From positions 1 through 44,353 of the IMG/VR virus record IMGVR_UViG_3300031673_000124: 44,353 nucleotides of DNA; one strand, given 5' to 3'. Position 1 is the first letter of the stretch. Each line of letters opens with the position of its first letter. Under the pieces are notes generated by a model. That model was not told where the DNA came from, searched no databases, and worked only from the letters and a program-made list of their open reading frames with translations. A program made the translations under genes and the position numbers. This stretch comes from a virus. Positions 1 to 44,353 of this stretch are shown here, piece by piece.

Positions 1-146
1 CGCGATGACGACGGCACGCCCTGGCGGCGAGGATGGATCGAATCGGTGACGGCGCATCCAGGCCGGGTGGATGACGTGGACAGGTACGAATTTCGCATCA
101 GCGTGCCGCCCGACTCATGGTACTATTCCGCATGGGCTTATGACGG
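1..146. repeat. Left copy of 146-bp terminal direct repeat (circular closure)
   Basis: These bases match 44208-44353 with two differences: T at 127 versus C at 44334, and T at 138 versus C at 44345. The tail hub reading frame continues exactly through the overlap, so this is the join of a circular or circularly permuted genome and not two separate loci. The first difference changes Ser to Pro and the second is silent, which suggests population variation. Merging the copies gives a unit length of 44207 bp. Confidence 0.9.
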
Positions 147-17413: not shown

Positions 17414-18073
17414 ATGAACACCATCCTTCAAGGCGACGCGCGGGCGCTGGCGGGAACGCTGGCGGAACCAGTGATACGCCGCGAATGGGCGATGCCGTCG
17501 CCAAACACTTTCAGCATCCGACCGATTGCGCGGCTCCTGGATAGGTATCTGGAAGGATGCAAGGTCATCGTTGATCCGTTCGCCCGCAACAGCAAGCGCG
17601 GAACAATTACCAATGACCTCAACCCGGATATGCACACGATGTATCACATGGAAGCCGGGGCGTTTTGCGGGATGCTCTTGGAGCAGCACATCGTCGCCGA
17701 TGCAGTCCTTTTCGACCCGCCATATAGTCCGAGGCAGATGGCAGAAGTTTATCAGAAGTACGGGCTGGAATTCACTACCCGCGACTCCCAAAGGGCCGTG
17801 CGCTTTCCCGTCTGCAAAAACCGCCTGGCCCGCCTTTTGCGAATGGGGGGCGTGGCGATAAGTTTCGGATGGAGCACTGCCGGCTTGGGTAAGAACAATG
17901 GCATGGAGATTATCGAGATTCTGATGGTGCCCCACGGCGGCGCGCACTACGACACACTTGTTACCGTTGAGCGTAAAGTGACCGACACGGCCAACCAGCG
18001 CATCGAGGCCGCGGCGCGGGGCCTGACGCTGGCGGAGCACGTCGGCGGGCAAGGGAGCCTGGTGAAGGCGTAA
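17414..18073 (+). CDS. DNA adenine/cytosine-N4 methyltransferase (DPPY)
   Basis: 219 residues, ATG 17414. The catalytic motif LFDPPY is at 99-104. The cofactor-side motif appears as VIVDPFARNSKRGTITNDLNP (split around 52-71), a form common in phage-encoded amino-methyltransferases. No target recognition domain is obvious and no partner restriction enzyme is seen, so it is probably an orphan that protects phage DNA or modifies host sites. Target sequence cannot be told. Confidence 0.8.
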   Translation: MNTILQGDARALAGTLAEPVIRREWAMPSPNTFSIRPIARLLDRYLEGCKVIVDPFARNSKRGTITNDLNPDMHTMYHMEAGAFCGMLLEQHIVADAVLFDPPYSPRQMAEVYQKYGLEFTTRDSQRAVRFPVCKNRLARLLRMGGVAISFGWSTAGLGKNNGMEIIEILMVPHGGAHYDTLVTVERKVTDTANQRIEAAARGLTLAEHVGGQGSLVKA

Positions 18074-19529: not shown

Positions 19530-20651
19530 ATGGAAAGCACCGAGGGGGAAGACTGCGGCGAGAAGATCGTGAAGGGCCGGTCGCCCTTTCGGGATCCGCC
19601 ACGGTCGGCTATTTGGGTGGCTGGCATGAGCCATTCGTACCCTGGGCACCGGGAGAGGATGCGACAGCACCATGCGGCGATAGTCTGGCACTACTTGCAA
19701 CGGCCGGGCGAACTCGAAGAGCAGCGGGCATACGGGCAGTGCGAGACGGGCCTGGGGGCAATCGTGGAAAGAATCCAGACCCGCTGTGATGGTGACATGG
19801 CGGCCACGATGCGGCTTTTCGTCCACTGGGCGCCGGAGGAGGAGGAGAACGAGATGGAGAAGTTGCGGGCGATTTATTGCCCTACGGGGCGCGCGGCCGA
19901 ATACGGGGGCTTGGCGCTCAACCTGTACGACCGGTGCGCCTGCGGGTGCGTCTACTGCTACGCCAGGCGCCTGTGGCCGAAGGGGGACGCCACGCCCTCG
20001 CCGCGCAAGAATATCCTTCAGAAACTTGACCACGACGCGAAACGCCTCTGGGGCGATCCGAGGCCGGTATTCCTGTCGTTCCTCTCTGACCCGTATCCCG
20101 AAGTCGAGAAGAATTATGGCGTGACGCGGGCGGCGCTGGAGATCCTCGGCGCCGCTGGCCTGCGGCCGCGCATACTCACGAAACGGCCCTCGTTGGCGAT
20201 CGGGCGGGACCTGGACCTCCTGCGGTCTACTGACGCGGAGTTCGGCGTGACGCTGCACTTGACGGAACCATTATCTGCCCGCGAATTGGAACCGAATGCC
20301 GAGACCTTGGCGCAACGTGGCGCCGCGCTATGGGAAGCACATGAGGCACGGCTCAGGACGTGGGTATCGATGGAGCCGGTCTTCTATCCGGGTCAGGCGC
20401 TTGACATAATCGAACGACATGCTCCCGCCGTCGACGTCTGGCGTATCGGGAAGCTGAACCATTACCCGGGCATCGAGCGAGGTATCGACTGGGGGGCGTT
20501 CCTGGAGGCCGCAATCCTTCGTATCCCGTCGAATGTCGGCTACTACATCAAAGAGGACCTCTGGCAGTTCGCCCCGGCTGCGTTCCCATGGCCCAGGCAA
20601 CGCGACTGCACGAGGGCGAGGCCGGCAAACAAGGGGGGGGAGAATAAATGA
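19530..20651 (+). CDS. Radical SAM protein (spore photoproduct lyase-like phage family), with N-terminal extension
   Basis: 373 residues from ATG 19530, or 265 from ATG 19854. The latter follows a strong GGAGGAGGAG and matches where relatives begin (IYCPTGRAAEYGGLALNLYD). Counting from 19854, the radical SAM cluster CX3CX2C is C28, C32, C35 in RCACGCVYC. VFLSFLSDPYP and RPRILTKRPSL follow, typical of SPL-like radical SAM proteins that occur widely in phages without known function. The 108-residue extension is open throughout and contains helices and HWAPEEEE; both forms may be made. A 4-base overlap leads to the next gene. Confidence 0.85.
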   Translation: MESTEGEDCGEKIVKGRSPFRDPPRSAIWVAGMSHSYPGHRERMRQHHAAIVWHYLQRPGELEEQRAYGQCETGLGAIVERIQTRCDGDMAATMRLFVHWAPEEEENEMEKLRAIYCPTGRAAEYGGLALNLYDRCACGCVYCYARRLWPKGDATPSPRKNILQKLDHDAKRLWGDPRPVFLSFLSDPYPEVEKNYGVTRAALEILGAAGLRPRILTKRPSLAIGRDLDLLRSTDAEFGVTLHLTEPLSARELEPNAETLAQRGAALWEAHEARLRTWVSMEPVFYPGQALDIIERHAPAVDVWRIGKLNHYPGIERGIDWGAFLEAAILRIPSNVGYYIKEDLWQFAPAAFPWPRQRDCTRARPANKGGENK

Positions 20652-22328: not shown

Positions 22329-22931
22329 ATGACCAACGATACCGACAGTTCCGCCGCAAAAACAAAGAGGATAACCGGGGAAGCGGCCGGGTGGCAACCC
22401 CAGTCTCGCTTGATGAAACGAATGAAGGAGGTCGCGCTCCTACGCTGCGAGGCCGTGACCTGGGATAGGATCGCCAAGCAGTACGGTTACAAGAATGAAG
22501 ACTCCGCGCGCCATGCTATCACGCGAAAGTATCCCCAACTGTGGGCTCAAATCTACGAGAAGGCGCGGATCGAAAACCTCGACGTGATCGAGGCCGAGGC
22601 CATTATCACGTCGCGGCAACTCATGCGCGAGGGCCAGACGCGCACGGTCCAGGACGCCGACGGCAACCCTCGGACGATCGTCCCGGACGTCGCCATCAAG
22701 CGCGTGGCGCAGAGCGCGGCGTTCGCCCTGCTCCAGCACGCCTCCCGTTGTCGGGCCACGAAGATCGAGCTATCGGGCGGGGACAAGCCGATCGAGACGC
22801 GCGCGCGCCTCGACATCGACGTCTCCAAGTTGTCGGACGCGGAGCTCTTAGCCCTCGCCGGCGCCGGCCTGGTCGCCGCCCAATCCGCTGGCCGTGACGA
22901 CGGGGGCGAGGGTGGGCCCGCAGCCGACTGA
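22329..22931 (+). CDS. terS: Terminase small subunit-like protein
   Basis: 200 residues, ATG 22329; no ribosome binding site, consistent with leaderless translation from the promoter just upstream. An N-terminal HTH-like part (LLRCEAVTWDRIAKQYGYKNEDSARHAIT, residues about 38-66) is followed by a helical oligomerisation region (IEAEAIITSRQLMREG). The C-terminus is Ala/Gly-rich. Recognises phage DNA for packaging. It overlaps the large subunit gene by 38 bases, the usual arrangement. Confidence 0.75.
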   Translation: MTNDTDSSAAKTKRITGEAAGWQPQSRLMKRMKEVALLRCEAVTWDRIAKQYGYKNEDSARHAITRKYPQLWAQIYEKARIENLDVIEAEAIITSRQLMREGQTRTVQDADGNPRTIVPDVAIKRVAQSAAFALLQHASRCRATKIELSGGDKPIETRARLDIDVSKLSDAELLALAGAGLVAAQSAGRDDGGEGGPAAD

Positions 22932-28054: not shown

Positions 28055-29197
28055 GTGGCAGCCGAAACAGACAAGAGGTTGGACAAGGTCGACGTGCTCG
28101 TAGCGAAGCTCAAGGGCGTCGACCCCGCACTGGTCAAAGAGGCGCTCGAAAAGGCCATCGGCGAGCAGGCGGCGAAGATGGTCATCGAGCAGATGACGCT
28201 TGACGAGAATCGGCGGAAGGTCGTCGGCGAGGAACTCGTAAGCCAGGCCCTTGAGAAGAGGGGCATCCAGAAGCTCACGCTCGCAGAGAGGGTCGAGTAC
28301 TTCCGGTTCAAACTCCTGGGCGAGGCGCCCACGAGCCCCATCGTCAAACAGGCGCTGACGGACACGGTCGGGTCCAGCGGCGGCAGCCTCATCCCCGCCG
28401 ACCAGCGCCTCGAAATCTACGCGGCCGCCGCCGAGCGGTCGAAGATCTGGAGCCTGTGCGACGTCAATGCGACGTCGGGCAGGACGGTCGAGGCCCCGTT
28501 CGTCGTCGTCGGAGACGTCAACGTGGGGACGGACGCGAAGTCGAGTTCCGCGACGCGTTCGGACAAGCTCGGCGAGACGGCCGTGACAACGAGCACAAAG
28601 ACGTTCGTGCTCCAGGACACGGATGCGTACGTGCCGTTCAAGCGGTCGTTCGTGGCGAACGACCCCATCGCGGCATACACGAAGCTGATCGCCATGATCA
28701 AGCAGCAGTTCGTGATCAAGAGGGATTACATGATCCTCCGGGGCGCGGGGCATACGTCCTCGCAGGTACCGGGCATCATTGGCACGGTCGGCGTACCCTC
28801 GACGGGCCTGTCGGCCAACGTGGTACTGAAGGACGTGCTCGCGCTCTCCTTCGGGATCCCCACGGCATACAGGGACATGGGGTCGCTGCACGCCATCACG
28901 AATGGCAAGGTCCTCAAGGCCATCGTGTACGACCTGGCGAAGAACTTCGTCAACGCCCAGGCGCTCAACGCGGTGCTGCCGATCTTCGTCGAGTGCGGGA
29001 GCATGACGAACGACACGCTGCTCGTCGGGCAGTTCAAGGAGTACGCGATCTACTACCGCGAGGACATGGACATGATGGTCACGCAGGATGCGTCCTCGCG
29101 CGCCATCGACGTCTCGGTCCAGGACTCCTACGACGGGCAGGTAATCAACCCGTTGGCGTTCAACATCTACACCTCGGTCGCATACGCCATCGCCTAA
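28055..29197 (+). CDS. Major capsid protein (HK97 fold)
   Basis: 380 residues, GTG 28055 after AGGAGG. An N-terminal delta-domain (1-100, charged and helical) is followed by the mature shell protein (SSGGSLIPADQRLEIYAAAA onward, with VPFKRSFVANDP, RDYMILRG and QFKEYAIYYRED typical of the fold). The protease probably cuts near residue 100. Followed by a strong hairpin. It is the most likely abundant target for the glycan genes that come next. Confidence 0.92.
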   Translation: MAAETDKRLDKVDVLVAKLKGVDPALVKEALEKAIGEQAAKMVIEQMTLDENRRKVVGEELVSQALEKRGIQKLTLAERVEYFRFKLLGEAPTSPIVKQALTDTVGSSGGSLIPADQRLEIYAAAAERSKIWSLCDVNATSGRTVEAPFVVVGDVNVGTDAKSSSATRSDKLGETAVTTSTKTFVLQDTDAYVPFKRSFVANDPIAAYTKLIAMIKQQFVIKRDYMILRGAGHTSSQVPGIIGTVGVPSTGLSANVVLKDVLALSFGIPTAYRDMGSLHAITNGKVLKAIVYDLAKNFVNAQALNAVLPIFVECGSMTNDTLLVGQFKEYAIYYREDMDMMVTQDASSRAIDVSVQDSYDGQVINPLAFNIYTSVAYAIA

Positions 29198-29285: not shown

Positions 29286-29477
29286 ATGTGGATCAGAATA
29301 CTCAGGCAGGAAAAATACCAAGGGCAGCGGTACGCGGAAGGGATGGAAGTCGATATCCCGGACGCGGCAGCAGAGACGCTGATAAGCGTTGGCAGCGCGG
29401 AAAGGATACCTCCGCGGCGAGTCTCCACCAACAATCTACCTGGCGGGCTCAATAAATGGCTTCTCGTGAAAATGTAG
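29286..29477 (+). CDS. Small protein between capsid and glycosyltransferase genes
   Basis: 63 residues, ATG 29286. RILRQEKYQGQRYAEGMEVD and DAAAETLISVGSAERI form the short beta-beta-alpha pattern of small head-associated phage proteins (it reads like a DUF7302-type fragment). It overlaps the next gene by 22 bases. Function unknown. Confidence 0.6.
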   Translation: MWIRILRQEKYQGQRYAEGMEVDIPDAAAETLISVGSAERIPPRRVSTNNLPGGLNKWLLVKM

Positions 29478-32257
29478 TCGCAGTCTGGCCGGTAATAGCG
29501 ACCCGCGACAGGCCGGCGGATATCGCCGACCAGGTCGAGCGCCTCCTCCCCCAGCTCGAGGAGGGCGACAATATCGTCGTCGTTGTGGACGGCGGCGAGC
29601 CGACCATGCTGCAGACGGATCCCAAGGTGACTGTAATCAGGCTGGCCGAGAATGTCGGCGTCTACCGGGCGCGCCGCGTCGGGAACGCTTTTGTGCCCTG
29701 CGACGCGGTTATCTGCGAGATAGATGATCACGACCTGGCCGAGCCGAACCTCTTATCGAAAATCCGCGAGGCATTTACCGACGCGCAGGTAGTGCTCGCT
29801 TACTGTGATATCCATCTTCGCGCGGCCGACGGATCGTGCTGGACGACCCTGCCGAAACGCAACTATGAACCGGGCGGCTTCCACGCCGGGAATCTCGCCC
29901 TTGGCATGAGGGCTTATCGCAAGTGGGCATACGACGCGGTTGGAGGGTATCCGCTCGACGTGGACCCGGCGGGGGATTTCGCCCTGATGCTGCGTCTGGA
30001 GGCGCTGCTGGATGGATCGCCGCGCCACATCGTGCGCATCGCCGAGCCTCTGGTGACGGTCATTGCCGGGAACGGCATCAGCGGGAAGCGGCGCATAGAG
30101 CAGGATATGCAGGCCGCGAGTCTCGTGAACCAGATGCCGGGACAGGCCCTGCCGTTCCGTGCGATTGCGCCGTCGAGCGTGGCGGATGAGACGCGGCGGC
30201 TTGCCCCGCGCGAGCCGACGTGTCCCCCGCCCGATACGTGCGGCCGCTACAGGCCACACCTGGTGTATATCACGGCTCTGTTCGGCATCGGGAACGGCGG
30301 GGGCCAGTTGAGCGTGATCCGGGCCCTGCGCGCGGCGTATGACGCCGGCTGGCGCGTGACGGTCATCTGTGAGCGCGAGGTATCCACGGTGCACAAGGAC
30401 CTCGATTGGCTCTCGTTCGCCTGTTGCAAGAAGGCGGACGCCAAGTCCATAACCGAATATCTCAATGAGGCGCGGGCGGACCTCGCGGTGATAGAGGGCG
30501 AGGTGCATGTCTGGGACGCGGCCACCGCGGCCACGGAGGCGGCGCGCCTGCCCATCATCGGCAACATCCAGTTCTGGCGCCCGCTCGTGAACATCCACAG
30601 GGACGGCATCTGGGAGGCGATCAACGGCAAGCCCGAGGATATCCTGCCGTTCGTCGACCACGAGGGGGTCAAGCGATTCAAGACGGCCGTTGCCGTCATC
30701 GCCAATAGCGAGGTGACCGCGCGCTGGGTGGAGACGATCACCGGGATAAAGCCAACTATTATGAATCCGCCAATCGACCCTGACGCGGTGATAGTGAAGG
30801 ATGCCGTTCCCGTCCGCGAGCGCCGCTTCGTGACATGCATGTCGGGGCAGCAGTTAAAGGGGGCGGATATGTTTGCCGCGATGGCCAGGGCCAGGCCGGA
30901 CTTGGAGTTCAAGATCGTCGGCGGAGACATCATACACTGCAGAGGGGGCATCGCCTCGCTCGACGCATACGAGGGAATCCCGAATCTCGTGCTGGAGCGT
31001 GGCTGGATAGGCGATATCCGGGAGGTCTATGCCGAGGCCCGCGCCGTCTTCATCGGCACGCAGACGGCGGAGACGTTCTCGCGGTGCGCCGCGGAGGCGC
31101 GCGCTAATGGCATTCCGATTATCGCCACGGATGCTGGCAACCTGCCGAATATCGTGAACGCGGGCAAGCCTGGCGGCGTAATTATCCCGCGCCATCCCTC
31201 GCTGCCCGAATGCCTCGCGGCACTGGACACCGCGTTGGCGATGGATATCGAGACGGACGCATCCTTTTGCCACGACGATACACCGAAGGCCGTGGCGCTC
31301 TTCGAGCGACATCGCAACCTGTCCGAGGTGCTGATCGCCCGGGTCAACGCTCCGGGGATAGGGCGGGCCGCTACGGAACTCGCGCGAGCCCTCGGCGTGC
31401 GCGAGGTCGAGGGCATTCCCCGCCAGGAACAGATCGACGGCGCCGCGCTGACGATCCTGCCGGGAGGATTCAACGCGGCATACGCAACGATCTTAGAGCG
31501 ATCCCAAGCTCGCGTCGGGCTTTACTGGTGCAGCCACATGGCCCAGATGGATACGAGTCGCCATGAAATGGAAGCGTTCGTGGACGCCTTTGACGCGCTT
31601 GGCAAAAGGCCGGGCGCCTATTTCCTTACCTCCTGTCGGCACGATGCGGAATTCCTACAGTCGCTCGGGTACGCTAACGTCGAGTGGTTGCCACTCTGCT
31701 ACGCGGTCCCCGCGGCGCTTGGCCTGCGCAGGGAGCCGAAGACCGTCTACATTCCCGGCCCCTATGGCCCGAGGAAGAATATCTACGTGGCGCTGGCAGC
31801 CACACGCGCGGCCGGGTGCGAGGCCAACGTGGGGGAATGGATCACGCGTCACAAGGAGGCCGTGGCGTTCGCCAGGCACATCGGATTGGCGCTGCGCGTG
31901 GTGCCGATACGCAACTGCGATGACGTCCTGGAGATGGCGGCAAGCTCATCGGCTGCCTTGGCCATCAGCATCGCGGAGACGTTCTGCTACTCGGCCGCCG
32001 ACTGCATCTCCCAGGAGACGCCCGTCCTCGGATGGGCCGGCGTCCCCGCCGTCGCCCGCGAGGCGCGTCACGGGTTGGTCGCCGATCCGGGCGACGTGGA
32101 GGAAGTCGCGGCCGCACTGCGCGTCCTCGTGAACGATCCCGAGGCCGCCGGCGAATGCGCGCGCGAGCAGCGGGCGTGGCTGAAGGCTACCGTGGAAGTG
32201 CACGCCCTTGAGGCGCGCGCGCGGCTGAGGCGCATTACGGAAAGAGGGATGGCATGA
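29456..32257 (+). CDS. Triple-domain glycosyltransferase (GT2 + GT4 + GT4-like)
   Basis: 933 residues, ATG 29456. Residues 1-220: GT-A/GT2 fold, with VVVVDGG (41-47) and the metal motif DDHD (90-93). Residues about 267-600: GT-B/GT4, with GIGNGGGQLSVIRAL (277-291), NSEVTARWV, and the EX7E pair E539/E547 in ETFSRCAAEARANG. Residues about 660-933: a second GT4-like half or full domain (YIPGPYGPRKNIYVALAAT; ETFCYSAADCISQ with E841 and D849 in place of the second Glu), perhaps less active. Three domains in one chain suggest stepwise transfer of several sugars. It lies between capsid and connector genes and overlaps the next glycosyltransferase by 4 bases, so it is late-expressed. Acceptor unknown; virion protein glycosylation is the favoured inference. 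Confidence 0.85.
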   Translation: MASRENVVAVWPVIATRDRPADIADQVERLLPQLEEGDNIVVVVDGGEPTMLQTDPKVTVIRLAENVGVYRARRVGNAFVPCDAVICEIDDHDLAEPNLLSKIREAFTDAQVVLAYCDIHLRAADGSCWTTLPKRNYEPGGFHAGNLALGMRAYRKWAYDAVGGYPLDVDPAGDFALMLRLEALLDGSPRHIVRIAEPLVTVIAGNGISGKRRIEQDMQAASLVNQMPGQALPFRAIAPSSVADETRRLAPREPTCPPPDTCGRYRPHLVYITALFGIGNGGGQLSVIRALRAAYDAGWRVTVICEREVSTVHKDLDWLSFACCKKADAKSITEYLNEARADLAVIEGEVHVWDAATAATEAARLPIIGNIQFWRPLVNIHRDGIWEAINGKPEDILPFVDHEGVKRFKTAVAVIANSEVTARWVETITGIKPTIMNPPIDPDAVIVKDAVPVRERRFVTCMSGQQLKGADMFAAMARARPDLEFKIVGGDIIHCRGGIASLDAYEGIPNLVLERGWIGDIREVYAEARAVFIGTQTAETFSRCAAEARANGIPIIATDAGNLPNIVNAGKPGGVIIPRHPSLPECLAALDTALAMDIETDASFCHDDTPKAVALFERHRNLSEVLIARVNAPGIGRAATELARALGVREVEGIPRQEQIDGAALTILPGGFNAAYATILERSQARVGLYWCSHMAQMDTSRHEMEAFVDAFDALGKRPGAYFLTSCRHDAEFLQSLGYANVEWLPLCYAVPAALGLRREPKTVYIPGPYGPRKNIYVALAATRAAGCEANVGEWITRHKEAVAFARHIGLALRVVPIRNCDDVLEMAASSSAALAISIAETFCYSAADCISQETPVLGWAGVPAVAREARHGLVADPGDVEEVAAALRVLVNDPEAAGECAREQRAWLKATVEVHALEARARLRRITERGMA

Positions 32258-33255
32258 ATTTCCTGGTCGTTGGGGGCAATAACGCGGCGGACACGCTTGG
32301 CGTGGTGGTGCGGGCAATGGAGCGATCCGGCCATCACGTGACGTATGTCCCGACGGCAGGCCGCTGGACGCGCGAGACGAATGTCGAGGGTAACGCCGCC
32401 GAGGTGGCGAGGATAATGGGGATCACGCCCGGGTTTTTCGAATGCCTCCTCTGGTGGAATCCGAAGAACGATGTCAACGAGGAGGCCATAAGGCGCCTGC
32501 GCGCGCTGGACCCGAAGACGAGGACCGTCTACTGGACCATCGACGATCCGTACTATTACGATTCCGGCGGCCGTTCATATGACGGCTTTGAGTTGGCCGT
32601 CACGTGCTCGCGCGATGTGTTACCTCGATACGAGGCGCTTGGCATCAAGGCCGCGTGCATCTATCCCCCGTGCGACAGCGAACTTCACGGCCACGCTCCG
32701 ATCCGCCAGGAGGACGCCGCGGACCTGATGTTCGCCGCATCGAATTGCTACTCGCGCGAGAGGTATCCGGCGATCCTCGTCGACCGCCGGGACCTGGCGC
32801 TCTCCGCCGCAAAGATCGGGAGCTTGACGCTGTACGGCCAGAAAGACGGGCGGAGCGGATGGTTAGGCGAACAGGGTTCGCCGCTTCTCGCGCCCCACTA
32901 CCGCGGTTGGCATTCATACGAGGCGCTGCCGTCGACCTACGCCTCGGCGAAGATCTGCATTAATTCCCATGTGCGGCCGGACGGCGTCGGATATCTCAAT
33001 CAGCGGGTCATGGAGATCATGGGGTCGGGCGGGTTCATGCTCTGCGACCGCGTCGCCGGCATCGAGGATACGTTCGCGCCCGACATCGAGATCGCCACGT
33101 GGGCGACGCTTGAGGAATTCGAAAGCAAGGCGCGGTTCTACCTGGCGCACGAGACGGCGCGGGCGCATATCGCCGCGGCCGGCCGGGAGCGCGCGCTGCG
33201 GGATTTCTCCGGCGAGGTGTTCGTACAGAAACTCTACAACTTCGTGAAGGCGTAG
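32254..33255 (+). CDS. CgeB-like glycosyltransferase
   Basis: 333 residues, ATG 32254 overlapping the previous stop. It has an N-terminal Rossmann half (MNFLVVGGNNAADTLG) and TVYWTIDDP. The C-terminal block (YLNQRVMEIMGSGGFMLCDR; FAPDIEIATWATLEE; AAAGRERAL) is the CgeB/Glyco_trans_1_2 family hallmark, first known from spore coat glycosylation and found in many phages. It probably adds one sugar in the same pathway as its neighbours. Confidence 0.88.
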   Translation: MNFLVVGGNNAADTLGVVVRAMERSGHHVTYVPTAGRWTRETNVEGNAAEVARIMGITPGFFECLLWWNPKNDVNEEAIRRLRALDPKTRTVYWTIDDPYYYDSGGRSYDGFELAVTCSRDVLPRYEALGIKAACIYPPCDSELHGHAPIRQEDAADLMFAASNCYSRERYPAILVDRRDLALSAAKIGSLTLYGQKDGRSGWLGEQGSPLLAPHYRGWHSYEALPSTYASAKICINSHVRPDGVGYLNQRVMEIMGSGGFMLCDRVAGIEDTFAPDIEIATWATLEEFESKARFYLAHETARAHIAAAGRERALRDFSGEVFVQKLYNFVKA

Positions 33256-33258
33256 CAA

Positions 33259-33846
33259 GTGATCATCAACGATACGATAACGGAACTCCTGAAAGACCCC
33301 AACTTGGGCTCCTCGCGCCAGTGCTACGCGCTGATGTACGCGCTCGCGAGGGCATTCCAAGCCAAGACGGTACTCGAAATCGGGACGCACCGGGGCGTCA
33401 GCGCGCTGACGTTCGCGCAGGCGATAGCGGACAACGGCGACGCGGCTCGGGTGTGGACGGTGGACGACTACAGCCAGGGCGCCTCGCCGGTGGAGCATCG
33501 GGCGACGGCGCTGGCGGCCTTCGCCCAGGCGGGATTCGCGGAGGCGATAACGCTCGTGGAGGGTAGTTCAAAGGACGCGCTCAGGCCCTTGCTGGCGAAG
33601 ATCGCCCCGCTCGACCTCATCTTCATCGACGGCGACCATTCTCTCGGCGGGGTGATGGCGGACTACGGCGCCTGCAAAGGCTCGACCGATAGACTCCTTT
33701 TCCACGACATGGCCGGAGACAACATGCGGCCGGTGTTCGCGGTGCTACAGGATGCCGGATGGCATATCACGTATTTTCCCACGCGGGCGACGGAAGGCGA
33801 CAGGCGGCCCAAGGGCATGCTGCTCGCCGAAAGGAAGTGGACATAA
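33259..33846 (+). CDS. SAM-dependent methyltransferase (Methyltransf_24-like)
   Basis: 195 residues, GTG 33259, three bases after the previous stop. SAM motif VLEIGTHRG (38-46); WTVDDY; LIFIDGDHSLGGVMADY (D124, D126, H127 bind the metal in related sugar O-methyltransferases and hydroxylases). It lies in the glycan cluster, so it may methylate a sugar of the finished glycan (inference). The stop overlaps the connector gene start (TAATG). Confidence 0.8.
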   Translation: MIINDTITELLKDPNLGSSRQCYALMYALARAFQAKTVLEIGTHRGVSALTFAQAIADNGDAARVWTVDDYSQGASPVEHRATALAAFAQAGFAEAITLVEGSSKDALRPLLAKIAPLDLIFIDGDHSLGGVMADYGACKGSTDRLLFHDMAGDNMRPVFAVLQDAGWHITYFPTRATEGDRRPKGMLLAERKWT

Positions 33847-34475
33847 TGCTGCACGCGGCGGTAGCGACAATCCGTACATACCTTGGCCTGACGTCAAGCG
33901 AGGATGCCGCAATCCAGGCAATCGCGGACATGGTGCAGAGTCTTATGGAGGAGCACTGCAAACGGCGCCTCAAGGCCGCGGCCAGGACGTTCTACGCCGA
34001 CGGAGGCCATATCGGCCTCGGAGATCAGCCACCGCGGGTTGCCCTGGCTCTGGACGGATCGACCTCGCTCAACGACCTGATCCAGTTGCCCGAACCCTTC
34101 GCGAGTATCGCGTCGGTGAAGCAGGACAGCAGCCGCGTCTTTGCCGCGGGTTCGCTTGTGTCCGCGACGACCTATGCGCTCGACGGCAGCGGCATGCTGC
34201 TTCGGCGCCTGGACAATGTCTGGGAGCCGGGCCTGCGCAACATCGAGATCATTGGGCAGGTGGGATTTGCCACCATGCCCGCCACGCTTCTCATGTGCGA
34301 AATAAACGAGGTATCCCGCCGCCGGAACATGCAGGCGGCGCAGCGCCAGGGCGACGATATTCTGAAGTCGCAGTCGACCGAGGGATGGAGCAAGACTTTC
34401 CGCGACGACGTAAACGGCCTGGCCGAGGAGACAAAGGACATTTTGAACCGGGCCTATCGAAACCGAGGCTGGTAA
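33846..34475 (+). CDS. Head-tail connector (HK97 gp6-like adaptor)
   Basis: 209 residues, ATG 33846. It starts with the helical pattern of gp6-type adaptors (VATIRTYLGLTSSEDAAIQAIADMVQSLME), then CKRRL and beta strands, ending in a basic helix. Its place after the head genes supports the call. It docks under the portal to join the tail. The glycan genes separate it from the capsid gene. Confidence 0.75.
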   Translation: MLHAAVATIRTYLGLTSSEDAAIQAIADMVQSLMEEHCKRRLKAAARTFYADGGHIGLGDQPPRVALALDGSTSLNDLIQLPEPFASIASVKQDSSRVFAAGSLVSATTYALDGSGMLLRRLDNVWEPGLRNIEIIGQVGFATMPATLLMCEINEVSRRRNMQAAQRQGDDILKSQSTEGWSKTFRDDVNGLAEETKDILNRAYRNRGW

Positions 34476-34917: not shown

Positions 34918-35087
34918 TGGCGAAGTTGATTTCAGTCTCCGCCGATGCCTTGATTTTTGAGGTCGAGGGCGAAGAGGTCAGCGTTAGCATTGCGGGCTTG
35001 TCCTCTGAGGATGCGACTCTTGCGGCACAAGTCTATGACGCTGGGCTACGGGTTACGAGGCTGGACGATGGAGGGGTGAAAGTCTGA
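34914..35087 (+). CDS. Small protein before the neck fibre-like gene
   Basis: 57 residues from ATG 34914 (or 56 from ATG 34917). A beta-rich first half (LISVSADALIFEVEGEEVSV) and a helix. TGATG overlap with the next gene. No family recognised. Confidence 0.6.
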   Translation: MMAKLISVSADALIFEVEGEEVSVSIAGLSSEDATLAAQVYDAGLRVTRLDDGGVKV

Positions 35088-36916
35088 TGGCTGTCTACTT
35101 CTCGACCGGTTGCGAGACAATCGCGTGGCCCGACCTCGACTACGTTTATACGGATGGCAACGGGTTCTTTGAACTCGTTGGTGGAGGGCGTTCGGGCAAT
35201 TGTTGGCGGGCGCGGATATCGTCAGGCACGGGGTCGTGCTACGCCAATAAATATTTGTTTGGGGCCACGCCGCCACCCGCAACCGGTCTTGGGCGAATCA
35301 CTCTGTATTGCGAGTGGACCGGCCACGTCTCCGCCGACCTGCGTTTTTTCGGCAGTCCCGATGCAGTTGCGGAGACAGACCGCTTTCGGCTCGTGAGCAC
35401 GGGCCTCGGATACCTGATGACCCAATGCAGGGCGAGAATCGAGTTTCCGCAGGGAGGGCTTGTGCGGCAGGTCGCCACGCCGCCGCTATTGGATTTCGAC
35501 GTATGGTACAAGTTTTCCATCATCTACTTCATCGGCGAGGGTGGAACAGACAGTTGGGCGGTGTTTGAGATAAACGACGTGCGGTACACGGAGGTTGTCG
35601 ATTGCGACCTGAGGTATGGTGACAACATCCCTGGTTCGTTCAACGTCGGGGTGATAGCATCGACGAGCGTATACCCCACGAATCACGTCATGCGCATCGA
35701 CGACATCCTCATCGACGACGAGTTTGATCCTGCCGACTACAAGCCGACCTGGCTGCCGGAAACCGATAAGGTCGTAAAGCCGACACTTTTTGGGCTTGAC
35801 CTCGAAGGCACGCACGAGTGCGAAAACCTCAACGACCCCTCCGAGGGCGACGTGCGCAAAACGGTGGTCTTCGGGCGGGGGCTGGAATTCGAGGGCAACC
35901 TCGCCCTGACGACGGCGGACAATCTCCGGCGCGACGTGGGCATAGGCGCGAATGGAACAGAGGTCATCGGCAACATCACGCTTACGGCGGCGGAGAACCT
36001 TCTGCTCGATGTCGGCATAGGCTCCAACGGCACGGAGGTTGTGGGCACGCACGAGTGCGAGGCCATCCCCGACCCGGTCGCCGATGCCGACGTGCGTTTC
36101 GGCACGTTAAATCCGGGGACTGGCGGAACCGGCCTCATCCACGTGCCCGCGCCGGGCAAGGTCGCCCTTGATGAGCCCGTTGACCAGGCGCAAGGAACGC
36201 GAACGGATTGCCCCGTCGCGGCCGCCGTCCTGGACACCAAATACGGCGACCCGGACGCGCAGTTCACCGGCACGCATGAGTGCCCCGATACCTACATCCC
36301 GCCCCTCGCCATCACCACGGCCAGCCTTCCCGCCGGCATCTACGAGGTGGCCTACTCCGCCGCCCTGGCGGCCACCGGGGGCGTTCCGCCATATACTTGG
36401 CACCTTATCAGCGGTTCTTTGCCCCCAGGCCTAACGTTGGCGCCCACGGGCGCAGTGACGGGCACGCCTGGGATGCCTGGGGCTTTCTCCCTCGTGGCCA
36501 CCGTTACCGATGCGGGGGGCCAGACAAATGCCCGTCTCGTAACATTGACGATCACGGGCATGATCGCCAGACTCCCGAACCGCCAATTCGTCCACCTCAT
36601 AAAACTCTACAGGAACTCAGCCGCGAAGGCCGCGTCGGGCCGGGTCCTGAACTCATGGACGTATCAACGCGAAGTTTCCTGCCTCTGGTTTCCCAAGGGC
36701 GGGGACATCGTCGAGAGTAAATTCGGTCGCGCATTCCAGTGTGACGCGATAGCATGGATTGACCCGAGCGAGGACGTGCGGCCGCAGAAAGCGGGGGAAG
36801 AACCGGACTTGGTGGAATTCGAGGGGCAACAATACTACGTCCGGAACGTGCGCAACGCCGGCGGGACGGACAGGTATCTCATCGCTCAGATGGAGGCTAC
36901 CGCAGATGCGCTCTGA
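35087..36916 (+). CDS. LamG-like, Ig-like and head-closure fusion protein
   Basis: 609 residues, ATG 35087. Residues 1-215 resemble a LamG/concanavalin-type beta-sandwich. Residues about 225-400 hold repeats with GTHEC (three copies), DVGIGxNGTEV (two copies) and VLDTKYGDPDAQFTGT, a pattern of phage and bacterial fibre proteins. Residues about 405-480 form an Ig-like putative He_PIG domain (GVPPYTWHLISGSLPPGLTL). Residues about 490-609 (VLNSWTYQREVSCLWFPKGG; FGRAFQCDAIAWIDPSEDV; QQYYVRNVRNAGGTDRYLI) match SPP1 gp16-type head-closure/stopper proteins. A stopper with large binding domains is unusual; it would display six copies around the neck as collar fibres. No internal ribosome binding site favours two proteins. 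Confidence 0.75.
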   Translation: MAVYFSTGCETIAWPDLDYVYTDGNGFFELVGGGRSGNCWRARISSGTGSCYANKYLFGATPPPATGLGRITLYCEWTGHVSADLRFFGSPDAVAETDRFRLVSTGLGYLMTQCRARIEFPQGGLVRQVATPPLLDFDVWYKFSIIYFIGEGGTDSWAVFEINDVRYTEVVDCDLRYGDNIPGSFNVGVIASTSVYPTNHVMRIDDILIDDEFDPADYKPTWLPETDKVVKPTLFGLDLEGTHECENLNDPSEGDVRKTVVFGRGLEFEGNLALTTADNLRRDVGIGANGTEVIGNITLTAAENLLLDVGIGSNGTEVVGTHECEAIPDPVADADVRFGTLNPGTGGTGLIHVPAPGKVALDEPVDQAQGTRTDCPVAAAVLDTKYGDPDAQFTGTHECPDTYIPPLAITTASLPAGIYEVAYSAALAATGGVPPYTWHLISGSLPPGLTLAPTGAVTGTPGMPGAFSLVATVTDAGGQTNARLVTLTITGMIARLPNRQFVHLIKLYRNSAAKAASGRVLNSWTYQREVSCLWFPKGGDIVESKFGRAFQCDAIAWIDPSEDVRPQKAGEEPDLVEFEGQQYYVRNVRNAGGTDRYLIAQMEATADAL

Positions 36917-41715: not shown

Positions 41716-42105
41716 ATGGCCCTCAAGAGCACAATGTGGTGGTTCACGCCGTCTCCATACTACAGCCTGACGTTGCCCGCGCCGGCCCCGGAGTACACGG
41801 TTTCCCGCGAGCTCTTCCAGGCGATCGGCCAGGCGGCCGGCGGCGCCGACATGGTATACGATAAGAACGTCGCCACGCGCACGGTCCGGTTTACGCTCGA
41901 ACTGAGCCTCGCGCAGAAGGCCGCGTTTGAAAGCTTCCTCATAAACCGTCTCCACGGTGCAAGAGAGATATTTACCTGGGTCGACCACCAGGACGTCTCG
42001 CACACCGGCTGCCGCCTGTTGACGATCAGGCCGGAGTTCAAGAAAACCGCCTCGCAGCGCTGGACCGTGGAACTCGAAGTCCGCGTACCTGGGGACTTCA
42101 ACTGA
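41716..42105 (+). CDS. Tail protein after the tape measure (distal-tail/minor tail-like)
   Basis: 129 residues, ATG 41716. It starts WWFTPSPYYSLTL and ends RWTVELEVRVPGDFN, a beta-rich small tail protein in the place of lambda M/L or a distal tail adaptor. ATG of the next gene overlaps its stop (TGATG). Probably joins tube to hub. Confidence 0.7.
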   Translation: MALKSTMWWFTPSPYYSLTLPAPAPEYTVSRELFQAIGQAAGGADMVYDKNVATRTVRFTLELSLAQKAAFESFLINRLHGAREIFTWVDHQDVSHTGCRLLTIRPEFKKTASQRWTVELEVRVPGDFN

Positions 42106-44353
42106 TGGCCGGCAGCCGTACAGCACAACCGGGAGGCAATTTCTACCTTGCCCGTTATCAAGCCGAACTGCAAGCATCCACCGCCCTCAACGCGATCAAG
42201 ATCGACTGGGGCGGCGCGCTCGGGACTCTCTGGTATTCGGATGCGGACCGCGTAATCGACGGCGTTACAATGCTCGCCCGAATCAAGGAGTGGGGCAGCG
42301 CCACGAGCTCACTTTCGTCAGCCGGCGGGTATTCGTTCACCCTCTGGGACACGGACAGGACCATCCTCGCGCACATCCAGGCCGCCGGCGCCGCTGGTTT
42401 TCCCGTGACCCTCTATCGCCTCTGGCCCGACTTCACGCAGGCTAACTGGATAGTCGACTGGAAAGGCGTCTCGGAGGAACGATCCTCGTGGAGCGAGGCT
42501 GATGCGTCGATCTCGATTTGCTGCATCGACTATTCCTTCAAAGTGCGGACGCCCGGCAGCCTCATGGTGACGGATGTCCAGTTCCCGACGGCGTCGCCCG
42601 AGGCCATCGGCCAGGCGCTCCCCATCGTGTATGGGAAGAAACGCGGGGCGCCGGCGGTCTGGGTAAAGGGCGGCGGCCCCGTGACGGCGCTGCGCCGAGC
42701 GATGAAGTTTTACGATGAGTCGTTCGTCGTCGAGGACCCCACGCTTTTCCCTGCGTCCGATGCAGGCAACACAATCGATGTTTGGGTCGGCCGCGAACTG
42801 GTGCGGGGATATTTCGGAACGACGCGGCGCTTTACGATCACCCAACGGGGCGTGCCGATTCGCTCGGGGACGCTCTCGTTCGTCGACGATGGTTTTGGGC
42901 GGACCCTCACGCTTGATACGACGGAACCGACCGACTTCTGGAAAGGCTACGTCATTAAGATGCGGGTGAAATCGGGAGGGGCATACGTCGGGCCCTGGCA
43001 GTACCGCACGATCTCGACGTACCGCCGCGAGGAGGGAGTGTCTACCGCCACAATAGCCTGCTGGTTCTCGGCGTCCGCGCCTTGGGCCGTTTACGAGACG
43101 GACATGCAGGGGATCGGTTTCGCGCACTACGCGCCTACGGGAGGCGTCTCGCATGAGTACTACATCGCTACGGCTCGGGGGTTCTGGAGCAGGGGAACCG
43201 TAGTGCGATACGCCGGCCGGAACCTCGGGACGGGCAATATGTATGACGCCGTCTTTGTCGTGAACGATAGGCCCTCGACATCCATCCAGAGCGTTTATTG
43301 CCGCAGCGAGGATGGAGAGATTCAGCGCCTCCCCGAAGGCTGCTACTTTGCCAACCACAACGATCCCCAGTTCGCGTCTCTCATCGGGCGCAACTGCACG
43401 ACGGTGACGTTCCACCTGCCGCCCGATCAGATCAGTTATCTCGAAGTTCTTTCCTATGGCACCATCAGCATTCCCGCCATCGCCGGACTCAGCGAAGGGA
43501 TAACGATCTCGATACCCATGCTCATGCGCCACAGGACGATTGATAAGGCGATTCAGGCGGAGGTCTGGGGACCGTCTGAATACAACCCGCCCGTGGTCAT
43601 CGAGCATCCGGCCCGGGTCCTGCGGCACATGGCCATGGTGTATGGATTTACGACGCCGGGAGAAATCGACGAATGGAGCATCGCCCAGGCGGTAACCGCG
43701 CGCCCGAATTATCGCGCCTGTTTCGCGCTCCAGCGGTCCTCCGGCCGCGCCGGCGATATGCTCCGCGACCTGGCCGATCAGCTCTTCTGCGCGATAGACT
43801 GGACGCAGGGGAAATTGCGCCTGGTCTGTCTGCGCAATGACATCGATGCCGCGACGCCGGCGAAATCATTCTCGGCCGCGCTGCGGCAGCGGGATACGTT
43901 TGGGATCAGCCAGGCGGGGATCCAGGCTGTAATAAACCAGATCGTCGGAACTTTTTATGACTATCAGAACGAACCCCAGAAAGTGACGCGCCGCGCGGAT
44001 GGCGAAGCGGGGTCCGACGACGCGATCCGGGTCGCCGGCATTATCAGCGAGGAGTTCAACTGCTGGGCATACGGGAAGGCGGCCCCGGCGAAGGCCGTCA
44101 TCTCATACAGGCTCTATCGTTTCCGCTACGGAGTCGACGAGGTCGCGCTCAACGGATTCCTGGGCTGCATCGACCTCGCACCCGGGGATATCGTGGAGAC
44201 GCGCGAACGCGATGACGACGGCACGCCCTGGCGGCGAGGATGGATCGAATCGGTGACGGCGCATCCAGGCCGGGTGGATGACGTGGACAGGTACGAATTT
44301 CGCATCAGCGTGCCGCCCGACTCATGGTACTATCCCGCATGGGCCTATGACGG
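42105..44353 (+). CDS. Tail hub/tip protein, N-terminal part (continues at base 1)
   Basis: ATG 42105; open to the end of the window. Together with 1-723 it encodes about 941 residues. Residues about 1-150 have a baseplate-hub-like start (NFYLARYQAELQASTALNAIKIDWGG; VTLYRLWPDFTQANWIVDWKGVS). The middle has an Ig-like/tail beta pattern (YGKKRGAPAVWVKGGG; FGRTLTLDTTEPTDFWKGYV). From about 540 it carries ADQLFCAIDWTQGKLRLV and later DLAPGDIVETRERDDDG, typical of phage tail hub proteins. It closes the tail operon before the glycosyltransferase gene. An exact family is not assigned. Confidence 0.75.
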   Translation, partial: MAGSRTAQPGGNFYLARYQAELQASTALNAIKIDWGGALGTLWYSDADRVIDGVTMLARIKEWGSATSSLSSAGGYSFTLWDTDRTILAHIQAAGAAGFPVTLYRLWPDFTQANWIVDWKGVSEERSSWSEADASISICCIDYSFKVRTPGSLMVTDVQFPTASPEAIGQALPIVYGKKRGAPAVWVKGGGPVTALRRAMKFYDESFVVEDPTLFPASDAGNTIDVWVGRELVRGYFGTTRRFTITQRGVPIRSGTLSFVDDGFGRTLTLDTTEPTDFWKGYVIKMRVKSGGAYVGPWQYRTISTYRREEGVSTATIACWFSASAPWAVYETDMQGIGFAHYAPTGGVSHEYYIATARGFWSRGTVVRYAGRNLGTGNMYDAVFVVNDRPSTSIQSVYCRSEDGEIQRLPEGCYFANHNDPQFASLIGRNCTTVTFHLPPDQISYLEVLSYGTISIPAIAGLSEGITISIPMLMRHRTIDKAIQAEVWGPSEYNPPVVIEHPARVLRHMAMVYGFTTPGEIDEWSIAQAVTARPNYRACFALQRSSGRAGDMLRDLADQLFCAIDWTQGKLRLVCLRNDIDAATPAKSFSAALRQRDTFGISQAGIQAVINQIVGTFYDYQNEPQKVTRRADGEAGSDDAIRVAGIISEEFNCWAYGKAAPAKAVISYRLYRFRYGVDEVALNGFLGCIDLAPGDIVETRERDDDGTPWRRGWIESVTAHPGRVDDVDRYEFRISVPPDSWYYPAWAYD
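44208..44353. repeat. Right copy of 146-bp terminal direct repeat
   Basis: Same sequence as 1-146 apart from C at 44334 and 44345. It lies in the tail hub gene, in the same codon phase as the left copy, confirming circular closure. Confidence 0.9.

Follow-up and report, generated by a model that had tools for sequence, protein, structure and literature searches.

A capsid-adjacent glycosyltransferase island with a conserved GT2 domain and exchanged modules in uncultured phages

Introduction

Why would a phage carry a run of putative sugar-transferring enzymes between its capsid and connector genes, and on what would these enzymes act? Among tailed phages, it is mycobacteriophages that offer the firmest evidence for virion glycosylation (PMC12363180), and the initial annotation of the locus considered here proposed a compact assembly line that adds and methylates a short glycan on the virion. 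The locus lies in an IMG/VR virus record, of which the window, i.e., the whole stretch of DNA analysed, has 44,353 nt. The two ends of the window (1-146 and 44208-44353) are near-exact repeats, identical at 144 of 146 bases, and its right end cuts through an ORF starting at 42105. Given these end repeats, the record is probably a complete or nearly complete genome, and it seems to be closed or terminally redundant.

Organization of the island within the head operon

The genes for the terminase (starting at 22894), portal (24354) and protease (26532) lie upstream of the island, and are followed by that of the HK97-type major capsid protein (28055..29197, + strand; Pfam Phage_capsid, 2.8e-14; phrog_10). 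A small gene of 63 aa (29286..29477, +), with its relatives traced through MAFFT alignment and HMM, separates the capsid gene from a 933-aa glycosyltransferase (GT) chain (29456..32257, +), recognized through Pfam, its relatives, and a model with fold search. This is followed by a CgeB-like GT-B glycosyltransferase of 333 aa (32254..33255, +) and a putatively metal-dependent class-24 O-methyltransferase of 195 aa (33259..33846, +), while the right border of the slot is formed by the head-tail adaptor, or connector (33846..34475, +; phrog_442, 1.1e-9), so that the cluster does lie between capsid and connector genes, as had been described.

The junctions are tight throughout. The small gene overlaps the GT chain by 22 bases, the chain overlaps the CgeB-like gene by the 4 bases of an ATGA, a 3-base gap separates the latter from the methyltransferase gene, and the methyltransferase stop shares 1 base with the connector start (TAATG), which bears out the 4-base and 3-base junctions noted earlier in the late operon. 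With no two neighbours more than 3 bases apart between the small gene and the adaptor, the genes are presumably carried on one transcript, probably with translational coupling. The codon usage of the 933-aa chain matches that of the structural genes, in a comparison for which the chain was itself part of the training set.

Two further genes of the window lie outside the island. The first (1002-2912) encodes a 636-aa protein with a GT9 (heptosyltransferase-like) match of 7.3e-10, which adjoins the tail genes across the circular junction of the record and constitutes the fifth GT-like domain of this phage; given that the L002, L006, L011 and L009 contigs, fragmentary though some or all may be, yielded no relative of it, it was not assigned to the same conserved system. 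The second (19530-20651) encodes a radical-SAM-like protein (weak Pfam match; phrog_13321), a 38% relative of which is found directly upstream of the terminase gene in L003-L006.

The enzymes of the island

The 933-aa chain consists of three domains, as the initial annotation had read from the letters, and both the Pfam matches and the motifs confirm this reading. The GT2 domain (aa 8-235; 29477..30160, +) presents an above-cut-off match to Glycos_transf_2 at aa 13-124 (1.4e-8) and an acidic DXD-type motif, DDHD, which is invariant in all the aligned relatives. Glyco_trans_1_4 (PF13692) matches the chain in two stretches (1.5e-17). The first GT4 (GT-B) domain (30251..31300, +) combines this profile with GT4 fold matches and an intact E539-X7-E547 motif (AETFSRCAAE), which does not vary among the aligned relatives. 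At aa 281-443 the chain also matches the N-terminal half of GT4 enzymes, weakly and below the cut-off. The second, GT4-like domain (31307..32245, +) is represented by the second Pfam stretch and by a profile match to the first GT4 domain (E=7.8e-5), and its motif is E841-X7-D849 (AETFCYSAAD), the E/D pair described previously. This motif is intact (E/E) in L006 and L011 and E/Y in L002, and the second GT4 domain may be inactive or non-catalytic here and in L002, where the second glutamate is missing.

The model of the whole chain is of modest confidence (pLDDT 67.5, pTM 0.47), and the fold search with this predicted model places the chain among GT2 and GT4 enzymes, in agreement with the domain assignment; WaaG, TarM, PimA and polysaccharide synthases are among its closest solved folds. 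The CgeB-like protein matches Glyco_trans_1_2 (PF13524, 5.6e-24), and its predicted model (pLDDT 71.8) has a GT-B fold, with best TM values of about 0.65-0.74 to solved GT4-type enzymes; orthologues are present at 37-42% in L006 and L011. The methyltransferase is assigned to class 24 by Methyltransf_24 (PF13578, 2.5e-16; PF01596, 2e-10), with a sugar or a small molecule as its putative substrate, and related domains occur within the same island of L002, L006, L007 and L008. The identification of these two proteins in the initial annotation is thus upheld, with metal-dependence as a putative trait.

None of the three enzymes has a hydrophobic segment above 1.5 (KD, 19 residues), and genes of two common sugar-nucleotide families, the nucleotidyltransferases and the epimerases, were not found in the window. 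Given these absences, the enzymes are probably cytoplasmic and would use donors of the host.

Relatives and linkage to the capsid gene

Among annotated, named phages, no relatives of the GT chain or of the CgeB-like gene were found, the GT2 domain being represented by one weak fragment and the methyltransferase by weak matches only. Relatives were likewise not found in sequenced bacterial genomes, which thus gave no clue to the host. In IMG/VR, by contrast with these collections, full-length relatives of the chain were recovered at 28% (L002/L010), 34% (L003-L006 and L009, which represent one population seen in five contigs) and 37% (L011). The same chain runs up to the contig end in L022, which was found by the portal query rather than the GT query, and in L007, L008 and L012 the GT2 domain (45-47% in the best segment) is fused to an unrelated GT32-like domain.

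The linkage of these genes was followed in eight lineages (the window, L002, the L006 group, L007, L008, L011, L012 and L022), each included because it has a capsid protein of the clade of the window and sequence beyond the capsid gene; L024, L025 and L103 were left out because their contigs do not extend past the relevant point. All the loci were scanned with profiles of the capsid protein, small gene, GT2, both GT4s, CgeB, methyltransferase and others, the capsid profile being a narrower one, given that the capsid-wide profile was too diverged. In all eight lineages, the capsid gene is followed by the small gene and then by a GT2 relative, both within 0.26-0.74 kb of the capsid stop. It was the GT sequence that first led to most of these lineages; queries with the portal and the capsid protein are less biased, and neither returned a counter-example to the coupling of capsid and GT2. 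Behind the GT2 domain, the architecture is GT2-GT4-GT4 in five lineages (one cut by the contig end) and GT2-GT32-like in three. The co-conservation of all three enzyme genes with the capsid gene, named at the outset as a check, holds for the GT2 (8/8), but not for the CgeB-like and methyltransferase partners, which are missing from some relatives.

The small gene is itself conserved in the eight lineages, with 63-83 aa (HMM 9e-21 for the copy of the window), and weakly matches PHROGs of unassigned function. In the GT-bearing clade, most copies of its product carry, at the C-terminus, a short hydrophobic tail (LLVKM, VLVKL, VLVKK), which is missing from the distant GT-less phages examined. It is possible that this protein is an acceptor or a docking element, or, alternatively, the pattern may reflect mere phylogeny.

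The profile scan found no GT2 match in more distant phages. In L048 and L039, the capsid gene, small gene and connector follow one another with nothing between, an empty arrangement in which the connector of L048 starts 4 bases after the small gene, and in L034, L041 and L044 the slot is filled by other genes, fibre-like as judged from their sequence. A slot that is empty, fibre-filled or GT-filled in different phages points to a site for accessory genes tied to the head and neck genes. Elsewhere in the more distant phages, GT-like genes, recognized from sequence alone, occur upstream of the terminase (L034 2274-4572; L035 5048-7673), the L035 region also having a methyltransferase-like gene.

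Conserved GT2 and exchange of the modules behind it

The GT2 is the most conserved module, with an identity of 34-58% across the lineages. Its mean identity is 45%, as against 40% for the capsid protein, and between the window and the others the values are 39-49% for the GT2 and 24-28% for the capsid protein. Of six comparisons between complete chains, five show the GT2 to be better conserved than either GT4 domain, and in the remaining one it is roughly level. Such conservation would fit an enzyme that works on a conserved acceptor, with the enzymes that act after it able to vary.

Lineages of the GT4-GT4 type (L011, L022) are intermixed with those of the GT32 type (L012, L008) in the capsid tree (supports 0.93 and 0.71), which indicates that the modules have been swapped. 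For example, the capsid proteins of L011 and L012 are 68% identical, yet the tail of one chain is GT4-GT4 and that of the other GT32-like, and L012 and L022 form the closest GT2 pair (58%, support 0.92), yet have different tails. At least one module exchange at the GT2 boundary is thus well supported by these comparisons.

The partners behind the chain also differ. The window has a CgeB and a methyltransferase; L004/L006 have class-24, FkbM and class-11 methyltransferases and a CgeB; L002 has one methyltransferase linked with a GT-D-like domain (weak, below cut-off) plus another methyltransferase; and L007 and L008 have a GT-like/methyltransferase fusion and a radical SAM protein. Within the population seen in five contigs, L003 and L009 are without 569 bases of the FkbM methyltransferase gene present in L004 and L006 (L004 11176-11744, codons 61-250 of a 287-codon ORF), in contigs that are otherwise 99.8-99.9% identical, and no microhomology was found at the deletion junction. 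This difference is a presence/absence variation of a glycan-decorating gene within one population. Beside the glycan island, a segment of about 2.1 kb, which includes a repetitive 469-aa fibre-like gene, is also absent from L009 (L004 13559-15670 vs L009 8253-8327).

What the island may modify

The island probably represents a set of cytoplasmic enzymes that, late in infection, decorate a protein of the virion with a short methylated glycan. The N-terminal GT2 domain would place the first sugar on a conserved head-associated acceptor, which may be the capsid protein, the co-conserved product of the small gene, or a protein that decorates the head or neck. Extension or branching of the glycan would then fall to the CgeB-like enzyme and the pair of fused GT4 domains, and the methyltransferase would cap a sugar hydroxyl, with sugar nucleotides and S-adenosylmethionine supplied by the host. 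We infer here the enzyme activity, the order of action (GT2 first), the acceptor, and the benefit of the glycan. The assembly line of the initial annotation is partly supported: it fits the capsid co-conservation (8/8), the lack of membrane segments and the late-operon coupling, as well as the fact that neither integrase, thymidylate-synthase-fold nor sugar-nucleotide genes were found in the window; its glycan and acceptor remain the conjectural part. The capsid protein is likely the acceptor or the neighbour of the acceptor, although location beside capsid genes need not mean action on the capsid.

The protein modified may, instead of forming the capsid shell, be a fibre of the tail or neck. 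Fibre-like genes occur in the same slot of L034, L041 and L044, as well as in L006, and the window encodes a candidate target, a 609-aa Ig-domain protein (35087-36916) two genes past the adaptor. This version of virion glycosylation is nevertheless rather unlikely, as the GT2 tracks the capsid and small genes in all the lineages, whereas the fibre-like genes vary.

Modification of the host surface (lipopolysaccharide, capsule or teichoic acid), which would exclude rival phages or aid release, is improbable by comparison. Most GT4 and GT2 enzymes of this sort serve the synthesis of cell-surface polysaccharides, and the closest solved folds include those listed above, but the three enzymes have no membrane segment, no tyrosine integrase was found in the window, and the cluster lies in the late head operon, abuts the connector, and is co-conserved with the capsid clade. 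Lysogenic serotype conversion of the gtr type was ranked low on the lack of a PF00589 match and of membrane segments in the three enzymes. Glycosylation of the phage DNA (hypermodified bases) as a protection from restriction is the least probable alternative: virus-encoded GTs do hypermodify DNA (Pyle 2024, as cited in PMC12619734) and the window has a DNA-methyltransferase-like gene (17414-18073), but no gene for hydroxymethyl-pyrimidine synthesis was found in the window, whether a thymidylate-synthase-fold hydroxymethylase (PF00303, with positive controls) or Tet_JBP (PF12851, searched without a positive control), and the cluster belongs to the head operon, at a distance from genes of replication type.

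Comparison with known glycosylation systems

Corndog-type phages have an O-methyltransferase and three GTs between the portal and the protease (PMC4351075), and glycosylated proteins have been reported for Corndog (PMC12363180). The cassette of these cluster O phages (Corndog gp35-38, Dylan gp32-35) resembles the island in its O-methyltransferase and several GTs, packed tightly in the head operon, but it lies between portal and protease and encodes four separate small proteins. BLASTP and profile comparisons of Dylan gp32-35 with the enzymes of the window were non-significant, so that membership by homology was rejected. Che8 gp110 is reported to be essential for capsid glycosylation (PMC12363180); the Che8-type GTs (gp108-110) are likewise phage-encoded, but they are separate proteins located near the right genome end, and no significant similarity to the enzymes of the window was found. 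The mycobacteriophage precedent therefore stands as an analogy, without a significant sequence relation to the Dylan and Che8 enzymes.

Of the PBCV-1 enzymes for capsid glycosylation, A064R combines two GTs with a methyltransferase, and A111/114R is predicted to have three GTs (PMC7019647). The likeness, drawn by description only, lies in several sequential sugar-adding domains in one polypeptide, sugar O-methylation and a glycan on the major capsid protein (PMC7019647), whereas PBCV-1 is a eukaryotic giant virus with another capsid fold and a fused methyltransferase. Long multi-GT chains are also found in BFVD, for giant viruses as well as uncultured Caudovirales. A viral protein with three GT domains therefore has precedents, and is less unusual than first supposed. 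What is new, on the comparisons made, is an enzyme family apparently unrelated to those of the Corndog type (Dylan) and Che8, its fixed slot, and the module swapping behind a conserved first enzyme.

Implications

With the GT2 retained and the enzymes behind it exchanged, the product is likely to differ from one phage to the next and would be a variable surface feature. A more far-reaching reading, offered tentatively and at somewhat less than even chances, is that of a capsid-coupled modular glycan-typing locus, in which an invariant GT2, adding the first sugar to a conserved acceptor of the head, is combined with swapped or lost cassettes (GT4-GT4, GT32-like, CgeB-like, GT-D-like, FkbM/class-24 methyltransferases and radical SAM) and each phage has its own glycan, in a manner similar to the O-antigen diversity of bacteria. 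The three-domain chains are candidate one-pot glycosylation enzymes, and the family as a whole belongs to uncultured phages, occupies a constant slot next to the capsid gene, and falls outside any detected relationship with the mycobacteriophage enzymes. The conserved first enzyme and the exchangeable later ones suggest that phage particles may have variable sugar coats, which, if true, would turn the glycan on the phage surface into a trait that can be tested for a part in adsorption, host choice and recognition.
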